Shown here piece after piece: positions 26,133 through 39,970 of a stretch of DNA of 64,000 nucleotides. The position numbers and the translations under genes were made by a program. Position 1 is the first letter of the stretch, and each line of letters begins with the position of its first letter. The notes below the pieces were generated by a model. It saw only the letters and a program-made list of their open reading frames with translations. It did no database searches and was not told where the DNA came from. Origin of the DNA: Bacteroidota bacterium (GTDB lineage Bacteria; Bacteroidota; Rhodothermia; Rhodothermales; UBA10348); contig JAJCYR010000042.1 of NCBI GenBank assembly GCA_029262775.1, positions 22,812 to 86,811 on the forward strand, given 5' to 3'.

Positions 26133-28961
26133 CTACCTCGACAAATACAGATTCCGCATTTCGAAGGGCTTCTTGAACGCCTCGTCGTCGAAGTCATCGA
26201 TGAAGGCAATGGCTTCGCCCGTTGATTTCATTTCGGGACCGAGCTCCTTTCGGACTTCCGGAAATTTGTCCCACGAGAAGACAGGCTCCTTGACGGCGTA
26301 GCCCGTCAGCGACGACTCGAGCAGCCCCGCCTCCCGGAACTCGTCGAGTTTACGGCCCAGCATGACCTTCGTGGCAATGTTGGAAATCGGAATGCCCATG
26401 GCTTTCGCAAGAAACGGTACGGTGCGGGAGGCGCGCGGGTTGGCCTCGATCACAAACACGTCCTCGCCTTTTACCACCATCTGCACGTTTACGAGCCCCA
26501 GTACGTCCATACGGAGCGCAATCTGCCGCACGTAGGACCGCACCTTTTCCTGTACCGCATCCGAGAGCGAGTAGGGCGGCACAACGGCCGTCGAGTCGCC
26601 CGAGTGGACACCCGCCGGCTCAATGTGCTGCATGATCCCGGCCACCCACACGTCTTCCCCGTCGCAGATGGCGTCGACATCGAGCTCGATTCCGTTTTCC
26701 AGAAAAAGGTCGAGCAGGATCACGTTTTTGGGCAGGAGTTTCCAGATCTGCCCCACATATTTTTCCACCTCTTCCTTATTGATGGCAATACGCATGCCCT
26801 GACCGCCGAGCACGTAACTCGGGCGTACGAGCAGCGGATAGCCAATCTGTTCGGCCGATTCAATGGCCTCGCGCGGCGTGCGGGCGCGGCCATAGGGTGG
26901 ATACGGGATGTTGAGTTCCTTGAGGAGGTCTGAAAACTGCCCCCGATCTTCGGCAAGGTCCATGTTGGCGTAGGACGTCCCAATAATTTCGACGCCCGAG
27001 CCGGCAAATCGGGCGGCCAGTTTGAGCGCCGTCTGCCCCCCGAGCTGCACGATCACGCCCTTCGGCTTTTCGTGCTCAATGATGTCAAGCACGCGCTCCC
27101 AGAAAACCGGCTCAAAATAGAGCTTGTCGGCCACGTCGAAGTCGGTCGATACCGTCTCCGGGTTGCAGTTCACCATGATGGCCTCGAAGCCCATTTCCTT
27201 GGCCGCCAGCACCCCGTGGACACACGAATAATCGAACTCAATTCCCTGCCCGATCCGGTTGGGGCCGCTTCCCAGGATCAGGATTTTTTCGCGGTCAGAG
27301 ACGGGGCTCTCCGAGTGCGTCTCGTAGGACGAATAGAAATAGGGCGTCTGCGCTGGGAATTCCCCGGCGCACGTATCGACCAGCAAAAAAGAGGGTTTCA
27401 GGCCGAGCGACAGCCGGTGGGCGCGCACCTCGTCTTCGGCTGCGTCGTCCGCGACGAGCCAGGCAATCTGCACGTCCGAGAACCCGTTCCGCTTTACGAG
27501 GCGCATGAGGTCCACATCGACCTGCGACAACATAAAGCCCGAGAGCCGCTCCTCGATGGCCACGATATCCTGGATCTGGTACAGGAACCAGGGATCGACA
27601 CGCGACACGTCGGCCACTTCTTCGACGCTCGCGCCCATGCGGAAGGCATTGCGAATCTGTAGCGTCCGGTCCCAATAGGATTTGCGCAGGCGGTTCCGGA
27701 TTTCGAGCCGGCTTGCTTCCTCGCGGTCGGCGCCGAGTCCCGAATACCCGTTTTCAAGGCTCTGCCACGCTTTCTGGAGACTTTCGTTGAACGTGCGCCC
27801 AATGGCCATGACTTCGCCAACGGCCTTCATCTGGGTCGTGAGCTCCTCGTCCACGCCCTCGAATTTCTCGAAGTTGAAGCGCGGTATTTTGGTGACCACA
27901 TAGTCAATACTGGGCTCGAAGCAGGCGCTCGTCGTTCCCGTCACCTCGTTGGGCAGCTCGTCGAGCGTGTAGCCAACTGCCAGGCGGGCGGCGACCTTCG
28001 CAATCGGATAACCGGTCGCTTTCGATGCAAGCGCCGAGGAGCGCGACACGCGCGGGTTGATTTCAATGGCAATCATGCGCCCCGTGGCCGGCTCGAGCGC
28101 AAACTGCACATTGCAGCCGCCGGCGAACGTGCCAATGGAGCGCATCATGCGGATGGCCGCGTCGCGCATGATCTGGAACTGCTTGTCGGTCAGCGTCTGG
28201 CTCGGCGCGACGGTCACCGAGTCGCCCGTATGCACGCCCATCGGATCGACGTTCTCGATGGTACATATTATAATGACATTGTCGTTCGCATCGCGCAGAA
28301 GCTCGAGTTCAAACTCCTTCCAGCCGACCAGACATTCCTCGATCAGCACCTCGTGCACGGGCGAGAGCTCCAGGCCGCGCATGACCTTCTTGTCGAATTC
28401 GCCGGGCGCCCAGACAATGCCGCCCCCACTACCGCCGAGCGTGAACGACGGCCGGATCACAACGGGCAGTCCACCAAGCTCCTGCGTGATTTCCTTGGCC
28501 TCCAGGAGGCTCTTGGCCACGCGCGATCGGGCCTGGTCCACGCCGATTTTCTCCATCAGGTCGCGAAACTGCTGCCGGTCCTCGGTGATGTTGATGGCAT
28601 CGATATCCACCCCGATCACCTCGACACCCATTTTTTCCCAGTACCCCTTGGCGTGCAGTTCATTGGCCAGATTGAGCGCCGTCTGGCCGCCCATGGTCGG
28701 GAGCACCGCATCGGGCCGCTCAATTTCAACGATTTCCCTGATGGATGCGGGCGTGAGTGCCTGTAGATAGATCTTGTCTGCCGTGACAGGATCGGTCATG
28801 ATGGTCGCCGGATTCGAATTGACCAGTACCACCTCGTAGCCCTCGTCACGGAGTGCGCGCGCGGCCTGGCTCCCCGAGTAGTCGAATTCGCAGGCCTGCC
28901 CAATGATGATGGGCCCCGATCCAATGAGCAGTATTTTTTTTATGTCTTCTCTTTTGGGCAT
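26133..28961 (-). CDS. carB: Carbamoyl-phosphate synthase large subunit, lacking the regulatory domain
   Basis: The 942-residue subunit contains both ATP-grasp carboxyphosphate and carbamoyl-phosphate halves (start [20 protein letters not shown]; second half [20 protein letters not shown]) and the central oligomerisation region. It ends at [12 protein letters not shown], right after the second ATP-grasp unit, so the C-terminal MGS-like allosteric domain (about 120-130 residues in the E. coli enzyme) is absent. There is no downstream ORF that could encode it. This shorter form occurs in Bacteroidota. It follows carA by 13 nt. Confidence 0.93.
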
Positions 28962-28974
28962 ATGGGTCGACGGC

Positions 28975-30099
28975 TCAGATTCGGCTGGGGTTCATGGACA
29001 TGGCGGTGACAAATTCGTCGAACAGGTACTGGCTGTCGTGCGGCCCGGGCGATGCCTCAGGGTGGTACTGCACCGAAAACCCGTTGAAGGCGTGGTAGCG
29101 CAGGCCTTCGACCGTGCGGTCGTTCAAATTCACGTGCGTCAGCTCGGCCACGCCCTCCCTGAGGCCCTCCGGGCTCACAGCGAACCCGTGATTCTGGGTC
29201 GATACTTCGACCGCGCCCGTCCGCAGATTCTGCACCGGATGGTTGGCGCCGCGATGGCCCACATGCATCTTGTATACGTCGAGCCCGGCGGCGAGCGACA
29301 TCAGCTGATGCCCCAGACAGATCCCGAAAAGAGGAATACCGAGCGTCATGGCGCCCCGTACCATCTCAATCTCGTCCGGCATGGAGCGGGGGTCTCCAGG
29401 ACCATTCGAGAAGAAAATCCCATCTGGGCTCCATGTGTTGACAAGCGCCAGGTCGGTGCCCGCCGGAAAGACCTGCACGGTGCACCCGCGGGTCTTCAGG
29501 GAGCGCAGGATGTTGCGCTTCACGCCGTAGTCGTAGACGGCTATTCTCGGGCCATCGGCCTCGCACCAGGAGTAGGCTTCCTTCGTGGTGACCCGCGAGG
29601 CCAGCTCCAGGCCCTCCATCGAGGGCCAGCGGCGCGCCTTTTCAATGAGCGATTCGTTCTCGAGATCGACCGCTGAAATCACGGCGTTCATGACCCCCTT
29701 CTCCCGGATGTGGAGCACGAGGGCGCGCGTATCGACCCCCGAAATGCCTACGAGTCTGTGCTGGACCATGAAGTCCTCCAGAGACCCGTCGGCCAGGGCG
29801 TTGGAGTAGCGCCGCGAGAAGGCCCGCACGACGAGGCCTGCCACCATGGGCTCGTCGGCCTCCATGTCCACGTCGGCCGTGCCGTAGTTGCCGATGTGCG
29901 GATAGGTCATCATCATGATCTGCCCGTGGTAGGACGGGTCGGTGAAAATTTCCTGGTACCCGGTCATCGCGGTATTGAAGCAGAGCTCGCCACCGGTTTC
30001 CCCGCGGTACCCGACGGCTTCGCCCTCGACGACGAGGCCGTCCTCCAGGGCCAGTTTGCAGGGTTGAAACATGTCCGTGGGAAGGTTTTGCTGAATCAT
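28975..30099 (-). CDS. carA: Carbamoyl-phosphate synthase small (glutaminase) subunit
   Basis: The 374-residue subunit hydrolyses glutamine and passes ammonia to CarB. The N-terminal domain begins [17 protein letters not shown]... after MIQQNLPTD; the class I amidotransferase triad is visible as [12 protein letters not shown] (Cys) and [14 protein letters not shown] (His, Glu). [13 protein letters not shown] is the oxyanion loop. The track ORF extends to 30300 across the leader; I use the ATG at 30099. A terminator-like hairpin lies in the leader. Confidence 0.93.
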
Positions 30100-30117: not shown

Positions 30118-30147
30118 AAAAAAAAACCTCCCCGTAACCGGGAAGGT
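30118..30147 (-). terminator. Leader terminator/attenuator candidate upstream of carA
   Basis: On the minus strand an eight-pair stem with one mismatch, CCTTCCCG / CGGGGAGG around a four-base loop, is followed by nine T residues, 18 nt before the carA ATG. No minus-strand gene lies upstream within the 200-nt gap to the divergent TonB-like gene, so it sits in carA's own leader. That is where a pyrimidine-responsive attenuator would be. The controlling factor is unknown. Confidence 0.6.
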
Positions 30148-30317
30148 CGTCACTATGGCGTCCAGAAAGAGGGCGTGGCGGCAAGGCGCATGGGGCGTTT
30201 TTGTTTCGGATAAAATACGGCTTCGGTCGCTCGCGGACAAGTCACCGCGCCGATCGCCGCCGTGGCAAAAGGCGTCCCCACCGAACCCGCTACGCACCAT
30301 GACGTTAACAGGCCATT

Positions 30318-31004
30318 GTGGATAATTTCGATCAAAATAGCCAGCGCCTGAGGCGCTACCCTGGGCATATCATGGTCGGGCTTGCGGCCGCATTGCTGCT
30401 CGCGAACCTTGTAGTCCGGTTCTGGCCCAACCACTGGGGCGGCAACGATCCGCGGCTTTTCGACATGTCGGCGCGCGAGGAAATCCAGCTGGAGGAAATC
30501 CAGCAGACCATGCAGGAAAAGCGGCGCCCTCCACCGCCGAGGCCCATTGTGCCCGTCATCATCCCCAACGACGACGAGCTCGAAATCGTGGAGCTCGACC
30601 TGGACAACAACATGCTGGCTGTCGAGGACCCGGGAACGGACAAGGAGATCAAAGACGGCGCCGACGAGAGAGATCAGTCGAGTGCGCGCGCCGATCGGGG
30701 CCCCCAGCCCCGCCGCATCGTGGAGCCCACCTATCCCCGCGCGGCCGACCGCCGCAATATCCGGGCGGAGATCGTGCTGCGTGTACTGGTCAACAGCCGC
30801 GGCCGGGTCGATAACGTGGAGATCGCCGAGCGGTGGCTGCTCGAAAAAGATACAGCGCGGCGCATTGAGGCCGTCAGCGAAGTGGGCTACGGCATTGAAG
30901 AAGCGGCCGTGGAAACGGCCCGACAGTGGATGTTCTCCCCGGCGCGCGAAAACGGCGAGCTGGTTACGAGTTATACTACCATCGCCATCCGCTTCGGCGT
31001 GTGA
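30318..31004 (+). CDS. TonB-family energy-transducer protein
   Basis: The 228-residue protein starts at a GTG (MDNFDQNSQRLRRYPGHIMV), has one N-terminal membrane segment (MVGLAAALLLANLVVRF), a short Pro/acidic periplasmic linker (KRRPPPPRPIVPVIIPNDDE), and a C-terminal TonB-like domain (PTYPRAADRRNIRAEIVLRV then WMFSPARENGE). It should couple the proton gradient to an outer-membrane receptor, but no ExbB/ExbD or receptor gene is in the window. The C-terminus has an extended helix (IEEAAVETARQWMFSP) typical of the family. Confidence 0.8.
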   Translation: MDNFDQNSQRLRRYPGHIMVGLAAALLLANLVVRFWPNHWGGNDPRLFDMSAREEIQLEEIQQTMQEKRRPPPPRPIVPVIIPNDDELEIVELDLDNNMLAVEDPGTDKEIKDGADERDQSSARADRGPQPRRIVEPTYPRAADRRNIRAEIVLRVLVNSRGRVDNVEIAERWLLEKDTARRIEAVSEVGYGIEEAAVETARQWMFSPARENGELVTSYTTIAIRFGV

Positions 31005-34258: not shown

Positions 34259-34849
34259 ATGGTTGCGATGACTGACGTCAGACTGCGCCCCCGGTTCGAA
34301 TTTGTCACGCCCGTCGAGCCAAACGACGTGCTGAGACGCCTCCAGCGGGTGCTGGGCGGCGGCACGGGTACCCGCCAGGCACCTGGCGGCGCGTGCACCG
34401 CCACCGGCCGCGTATTCGCGTCGTCTGCGGTCCTGAAAATCCCGAGCGACCAGGTTCATTTCTGGTCTCCCCAACTGGAGATTTCGGTCGATCCCCACCT
34501 GCCCGAAGGCTCCGTGGTGCGTGGACTTTTTGGGCCGCGCCCGGCCATCTGGAGCCTGTTTGTAGCGCTCTATGTGGGCATTGCCTTCGCGGGTGGCATG
34601 GGTGTCATTTACGGCTATGCCCAGTGGAGTCTGGGGGCCGCGGGGCACGCTCTATGGAGCGGCCCCGCGGCCCTTGCAGCCTCCCTGCTGGTCTATCTGG
34701 TCGCGCGACACGGTCGCCAACTGGGCATGCAGCAGATGCGGCAACTCAGAGCGGCGCTGGACGAGGCGCTCGCTGGCGACGACATACCCGCGGAAGGGGT
34801 ACACCATCTGCGCCCTCGGGAAGATTCGAACTTCCGACACCCGGTTTAG
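34259..34849 (+). CDS. Hypothetical membrane protein, 3' end read through antisense tRNA
   Basis: The 196-residue reading (MVAMTDVRLRPRFEFVTPVE...) has two hydrophobic segments near residues 100-145 (IWSLFVALYVGIAFAGGMGV; GPAALAASLLVYLVA) after an N-terminal RPRFEFVTPVEPNDVLRRLQ domain. The start at 34259 is my choice; the track begins at 34187. Its last 13 residues (LRPREDSNFRHPV) are the antisense of tRNA-Arg, so the natural end has probably been lost or the gene was truncated beside the tRNA. No family recognised. Confidence 0.55.
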   Translation: MVAMTDVRLRPRFEFVTPVEPNDVLRRLQRVLGGGTGTRQAPGGACTATGRVFASSAVLKIPSDQVHFWSPQLEISVDPHLPEGSVVRGLFGPRPAIWSLFVALYVGIAFAGGMGVIYGYAQWSLGAAGHALWSGPAALAASLLVYLVARHGRQLGMQQMRQLRAALDEALAGDDIPAEGVHHLRPREDSNFRHPV

Positions 34850-34883
34850 GAAACCGGTGCTCTATCCCCTGAGCTACGAGGGC
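34811..34883 (-). tRNA. tRNA-Arg(CCU)
   Basis: The minus strand folds into a complete cloverleaf: acceptor GCCCTCG/CGAGGGC, D-arm GCTC-AGGGGATA-GAGC, anticodon arm CCGGT-TTCCTAA-ACCGG with anticodon CCT, and T-arm GGAAG-TTCGAAT-CTTCC. Discriminator G. The CCA tail is not encoded (CAG follows). Confidence 0.95.
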
Positions 34884-39545: not shown

Positions 39546-39556
39546 GTACCTGAATT

Positions 39557-39963
39557 TGCCAGTCGGATCATCGCGCCGGAGCGCTACTACGGCGGTTTCG
39601 GTGAGGAAAGTCCGAACACCACAGGGCACCGTGCTTCCTAACAGGAAGGCATTGCGTTTGCGCAGTGACGGCACGTGCAACAGAAAGCAAACCAGCCGAT
39701 GGTTCCCATGGAACACAGGCGATGGGTGAAATGGTGGGGTAAGAGCCCACCGGCGCTGCGGGTGACCGGAGCGGCCAGGCAAACCCCATGGGGTGCAAAG
39801 TCAAGCAGCATCGCTCCTGCAAAGGATATGGCGGCCCGTCGAAGTGCGATGCGGGTAGACTGCTCGAGGCTGGTGGCGACACCAGTCCCAGATAAATGAT
39901 GATCTCCCCGTCTTACGTCGCGGCAGTGCGCGGGCAGACAGAATTCGGCTTACAGGCTGGCAA
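39557..39963 (+). ncRNA. rnpB: RNase P RNA (class A)
   Basis: The conserved 5' element GAGGAAAGTCCGAACACC and 3' element ACAGAATTCGGCTTACAGGC are both present, and P1 pairs GCCAGTC with GGCTGGC at the two ends. Size, about 400 nt, and internal GGTAAGAGCCCACCGGC fit class A. A terminator follows at 39971. The 39675-39899 ORF is a shadow within it. The RNA processes tRNA 5' ends with RnpA. Confidence 0.93.
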
Positions 39964-39970
39964 TGCCGCA

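Follow-up and report, generated by a model that had tools for sequence, protein, structure and literature searches.

The carA gene in the window, i.e., the whole stretch of 64,000 nucleotides that was analysed, is preceded by an intrinsic terminator that is kept across the class, and sequence comparison makes this leader element a well-supported transcription attenuator. The reading we prefer, to which we give a probability of about one half, is a carAB attenuator in which a ribosome on a short leader ORF masks the terminator, much as at pyrBI. The carAB enzyme catalyses the step with which pyrimidine and arginine synthesis begin. The features are as follows.

26133..28961, minus strand: carB, carbamoyl-phosphate synthase large subunit, 13 nt downstream of carA (Pfam CPSase_L_D2, 1e-96, and others)
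28975..30099, minus strand: carA, carbamoyl-phosphate synthase small subunit (Pfam CPSase_sm_chain, 8e-50; GATase, 2e-48)
30118..30126, minus strand: U9 tract of the terminator, from sequence reading
30126..30147, minus strand: terminator hairpin ACCUUCCCG-GUUA-CGGGGAGGU, from sequence reading, folding and conservation
30151..30153, minus strand: GTG overlapping the stop of the leader ORF (TAGTG), opening the frame TTFPVTGRFFF through the terminator
30153..30191, minus strand: upstream ORF MRLAATPSFWTP, ATG at 30191, stop TAG, ending 5 nt before the hairpin
30210..30217, minus strand: candidate -7 element TATTTTAT of the carA promoter, a consensus match to the Bacteroidota type TAnnTTTG
30238..30240, minus strand: candidate -33 element TTG of the carA promoter, 20 nt upstream of the -7-like element, from a Bacteroidota-type scan
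30318..31004, plus strand: divergent gene for a TonB_C-domain protein, a conserved neighbour of carA (Pfam TonB_C, 7e-14)

The original prediction placed an imperfect eight-pair stem with nine U residues 18 nt before carA, with no minus-strand gene ahead of it, and both statements hold for the minus strand at 30147-30118. The 5′ arm ACCUUCCCG occupies 30147-30139, the GUUA loop 30138-30135 and the 3′ arm CGGGGAGGU 30134-30126; the eight-pair core, which includes one U-G pair and can be extended to ten pairs, has an energy of -15.8 kcal/mol, and 18 nt separate the end of the U tract (30118) from the carA ATG at 30099. The folding of the full 221-nt leader is unremarkable (z -1.24). The gene behind carA is the divergent TonB_C gene. 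A tonB-like gene is divergent at this place in 52/58 loci, and a co-directional gene upstream of carA is likewise missing in 52/58. Because the upstream gene is divergent, the hairpin was rejected as the terminator of an upstream gene. Elsewhere, the window holds a class A RNase P RNA (39555-39968, plus strand) and a tRNA-Arg (CCT) (34810-34883, minus strand).

We take the hairpin to be part of the leader, not of the carA coding sequence, because the homology of carA to its relatives begins at about residue 11–13 of the protein read from 30099, and because the upstream extension of the carA frame is out of frame in congeners. In the window this frame is open from an ATG at 30300 through the hairpin; a carA start upstream of the hairpin is possible in the window only, is not conserved, and was set aside. 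Only in the window, likewise, does the frame opened by the GTG at 30151-30153 coincide with that of carA. Congeners L002 and L003 also have its FPVTGRFFF portion as an open frame across the terminator, though there it is not fused to carA.

Conservation of the leader had been named as a check on the original prediction, and its terminator proved conserved. The relatives searched all yielded carA; leaders were drawn from these and from further genomes of the family, order, sister order and phylum, and a terminator was called at a score of at least 20 within 320 nt upstream of carA. Of 123 distinct carA leaders in the class-wide sample, which we take to be the Rhodothermales and their sister order, presumably the Balneolales, 112 have such a terminator. 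On the other strand of that intergenic region one was called in 1 of 69 cases, and inside carA in none of 76 windows; this comparison excludes chance. Among the 11 leaders scored negative, some are scoring misses: the U tract after the hairpin is interrupted in L145 and L150, and L123 has a hairpin with a long loop. The terminator is really absent from L029, L033 and L039 (family f14), L043, L090 and L091 (genus g24) and L141, among others. Within genus g24, L046, L096 and L101 keep the terminator, and L043, L090 and L091 have lost it, with a remnant GGCCTTCCCAAATTCCGATAG; this split offers a natural comparison for expression.

With few departures, the Rhodothermales hairpin has the form CCUUCCC-loop-GGGRRGG or a near variant, and U6-9 comes after it. 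The sister order has AAUCCGAC-loop-GUCGGAUU-U8 instead, i.e., a different stem at the same place. Hairpin plus U tract show an identity of 0.63–0.91 in nine clades, above both flanks (0.17 to 0.74) in every clade. Ahead of the ORF, the leader of the f1 genera shows no conservation (0.30–0.43). The element is also specific to carA: in the window's genome, the pattern CTTCCC-N3-14-GGGRRGNYTTTT occurs at carA only. It was found at carA in 10 of 13 further genomes, the strict pattern being missing in the other 3, and G034 has one site beyond carA, the sole extra among the genomes scanned. No comparable element was seen in 19 Bacteroidota outside the class, where the terminators present (e.g., L189, L194) look, from their sequence, like terminators of upstream genes; occurrence throughout the phylum was therefore rejected.

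Balneolaceae-like leaders (L107-L120, L161, L167, L170, L173; alignment A1) are, in addition, strongly conserved upstream of the terminator, in the form ACAAAGCU ... GUUAGCAAYCCAUAGCUUUGA. This segment folds better than shuffles in several members and is a possible structured RNA; its TAGCTTTG part also resembles a promoter element. RNAalifold found little support beyond the terminator in the Balneolaceae alignment, with one pair showing a double change, and did not confirm stems in the middle region that had been spotted by eye. In L107, L108, L109, L112, L114 and L115, terminator and carA are set apart by about 200 nt of additional sequence, repetitive in part.

An intrinsic terminator between promoter and gene is the hallmark of an attenuator, and this is the arrangement found here, the promoter being a predicted one. 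The candidate -7 element places the RNA start at about 30204. Similar elements occur in relatives, e.g., CCGTATATTGGCCGAAATG and CCGTATCTTTGATGAAATG; TAnnTTTG with a TTG about 20 nt upstream precedes the hairpin in many leaders, and the mean best score of the promoter scan is 5.26, against 4.63 in shuffles. In L001, L048, L054 and L119, the aligned carA protein starts only 10–26 nt after the terminator, which leaves no room for a promoter downstream of the terminator. Because of these short gaps and the divergent upstream gene, transcription must read through the terminator. Attenuation, as originally proposed, is thus supported by the class-wide conservation of the terminator, the divergent upstream gene and the short gaps.

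A short ORF just ahead of the hairpin was overlooked in the original prediction. At the position of the window's leader ORF, congener L003 reads MRLAATPTFHAP-stop. Further leader ORFs ending directly before the hairpin are VLCKHPDSGLRTA-stop in g9, VLHSSSAFGKTNF-stop in g5, VIGSGPGQLHLRRFRGG-stop in f3 and MSPDIPPEPGPCSLAPTPLD-stop in g22. The stop often lies 1–15 nt before the hairpin, as it does in the window and in most members with an ORF, and in the f1 genera that have a leader ORF its start lies 42–48 nt before the hairpin in most members. There are exceptions: L002 has no ATG or GTG start at the position, and in L006, L009, L010 and L016 the ORF continues through the hairpin. The geometry was scored genus-weighted, with ATG or GTG ORFs of 8–30 codons whose stop lies just before the hairpin, and compared with dinucleotide shuffles. 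A leader ORF is present in 10.9 of 36 Rhodothermales genera by this weighting, versus 5.5 ± 1.9 in shuffles, 1 of 100 of which reach that value. That is, about one third of genera have a leader ORF under the strict rule, and some members are without one.

Synonymous changes were seen in the leader peptides RPLAPDVL (L139/L146) and VLYSSSAFGKT. A BLOSUM-based codon-substitution test, for which frames were picked by eye after inspection and in which the f4 group was misaligned, gave 31.0 for frame 0, where the null was -8.1 ± 22 (38/1000); the third position was in excess, with 54 variable columns versus 39 and 35. The statistics on the ORF are moderate, and correct for relatedness only in part. 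From these sequence patterns, translation of the leader ORF is supported but not proven, and we hold it with moderate confidence. Rhodothermus and Salinibacter show no Shine-Dalgarno signal, and translation initiation in the group is poorly understood (PMC3155529).

We propose the following mechanism. RNA polymerase would start about 105 nt upstream of carA and meet a strong intrinsic terminator before the gene, so that carAB would be expressed only when the terminator fails. A ribosome would translate the short leader ORF, which ends 1–15 nt before the hairpin or, in some species, enters it. A ribosome keeping pace with the polymerase would cover the 5′ arm, the hairpin would not form and carAB would be transcribed; with the polymerase ahead of the ribosome, the hairpin would form and transcription would stop. 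Low UTP or CTP would slow the polymerase and favour read-through. Both the coupling and the role of pyrimidine supply as the signal are presumptive. The almost entirely pyrimidine 5′ arm of the Rhodothermales (CCUUCCC) would fit UTP/CTP sensing: its pyrimidine fraction is 0.83, versus 0.49 in a control set of only 10 terminators. The pyrimidine content of the transcribed leader, 0.542, is only slightly raised over the 0.524 found further upstream.

Direct masking is suggested by distance. In E. coli, the ribosome suppresses nearly all termination at a terminator that follows a stop codon by a few bp; amino-acid attenuators have a spacing of more than 20 bp, and at pyrBI the leader gene contains the terminator (PMC4824070; see also PMC5021804). 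The short stop-to-hairpin distance in the carA leaders argues for direct masking by the ribosome. An alternative antiterminator pairing, the search for which had been proposed along with the original prediction, failed to appear: pairing to either terminator arm had a mean z of 0.17 and -0.02 over 79 leaders, not above shuffles. Coupling is favoured over a classical amino-acid attenuator because there is neither a competing pairing nor an amino-acid bias in the leader peptides. It is by such ribosome masking, probably, that bacteria of this class decide on carAB synthesis.

An attenuator that is real but run by an RNA-binding protein or other trans-acting factor recognising the hairpin, rather than by the ribosome, is unlikely. 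The stem and, in part, the loop are conserved beyond what pairing needs: CCUUCCC is kept across the order, the AGGU loop within family f1, and the hairpin is near-invariant in Balneolaceae. A pyrR homologue scoring over the curated cut-off is also present; indeed, the window's genome has two PyrR-family genes of this kind (L075, L076), of which L075 sits directly upstream of a pyrB-like ORF, away from carA. Against PyrR itself, the loop ARUCCNGNGAGGYU was not found in a leader hairpin, in agreement with the original statement that no PyrR site was identified; the partial matches, to the 3′ half, are the 3′ arm of the terminator itself and lack the ARUC partner. The pyrR-pyrB ORFs have no leader terminator before them. 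Recognition by a protein would, moreover, leave the geometry of the leader ORF unexplained. A scan of 4227 Rfam families gave no match in the window's leader at gathering score, and in 20 related loci gave at E<=1 one chance-level snoRNA match only.

Distinctly less plausible is a constitutive partial terminator, i.e., a hairpin that sets carAB expression at a fixed, lower level. It would agree with the fact that no sensor element was identified besides the moderately supported leader ORF. A weaker promoter would suffice for that purpose, however, and the terminator has been kept, and swapped for a different stem at the same place in the sister order.

Stalling of the ribosome at arginine or another specific amino acid in the leader ORF, as in a his/trp-type attenuator, is very unlikely. 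carAB also feeds arginine synthesis, and arginine abounds in some leader peptides (RRFRGG in f3, RPRRR in f12), but some clades have none. Overall, neither arginine (0.126 vs. 0.131 expected) nor proline (0.143 vs. 0.155 expected) is enriched over composition. The leaders show neither a run of codons for a regulating amino acid nor mutually exclusive hairpins, there is no antiterminator pairing, and the stop-to-hairpin distance is too short for the his/trp type.

That the leader ORF encodes a regulatory nascent peptide that responds to pyrimidines or arginine, as a bacterial analogue of the CPA1 peptide of fungi, is highly improbable. The f14 leaders L029, L033 and L039 have no terminator but share a short ORF 70–115 nt before carA, with the conserved peptide VKVLRPGA(R/K)MPN (MHVKVLRPGARMPN..., MPVKVLRPGARMPN..., VKILRPGAKMPN...); a nascent-peptide role would explain why this peptide is kept there. 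Also highly improbable is a separate small RNA whose 3′ end is the hairpin, carA being transcribed from a promoter of its own. This would match the roughly 80 nt enclosed by promoter-like element and terminator, but the leader upstream of the ORF lacks conservation in the f1 genera, and L001, L048, L054 and L119 have no space for a second promoter.

What is known of carAB control concerns mainly transcription factors in E. coli and, in Gram-positives, PyrR. An earlier description of a carA leader terminator was not found in the literature searched, i.e., open-licence papers. The class that keeps the terminator includes families with cultured members, presumably those of Rhodothermus and Salinibacter. 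A class-wide carA terminator in Bacteroidota provides a testable case of attenuation where coupling and translation initiation are poorly understood.

Four known systems invite comparison. The fungal CPA1 arginine attenuator peptide is encoded by a uORF on which ribosomes stall in response to arginine, and acts on translation and mRNA decay; peptide conservation of that kind was not noticed in the carA leaders. The PyrR attenuators of Bacillus and relatives also have a terminator in a pyrimidine-operon leader, and PyrR homologues are encoded in the window's genome, but the carA leaders have neither the binding-loop consensus nor the antiterminator/anti-antiterminator pairing. The carA (SRC-12-1) motif of betaproteobacteria, found mostly in Polynucleobacter, is an extended imperfect hairpin with a proposed role in translation initiation (PMC8632094). 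Like the element described here, it is conserved, lies in the leader immediately ahead of carA and has a promoter upstream; the published description sets it apart, as no terminator is described there (PMC8632094).

The closest likeness is to E. coli pyrBI, with its pyrL leader peptide and UTP-sensitive coupling. In both, the gene belongs to the pyrimidine pathway, an intrinsic terminator has a short leader ORF beside it (at carA a candidate one, and not in all members), no competing antiterminator hairpin is needed, and proximity of the ribosome would suppress termination. The differences are that the carA leader ORF usually stops 1–15 nt before the hairpin whereas the pyrBI ORF reads through, that the leader peptide has 10–25 codons versus 44 in pyrBI, that gene and phylum are others, and that UTP-dependent pausing has only a presumed counterpart here. 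By this analogy, the carA leader would work like pyrBI, yet we do not file it as a pyrBI-type member, because its terminator usually lies outside the leader ORF.
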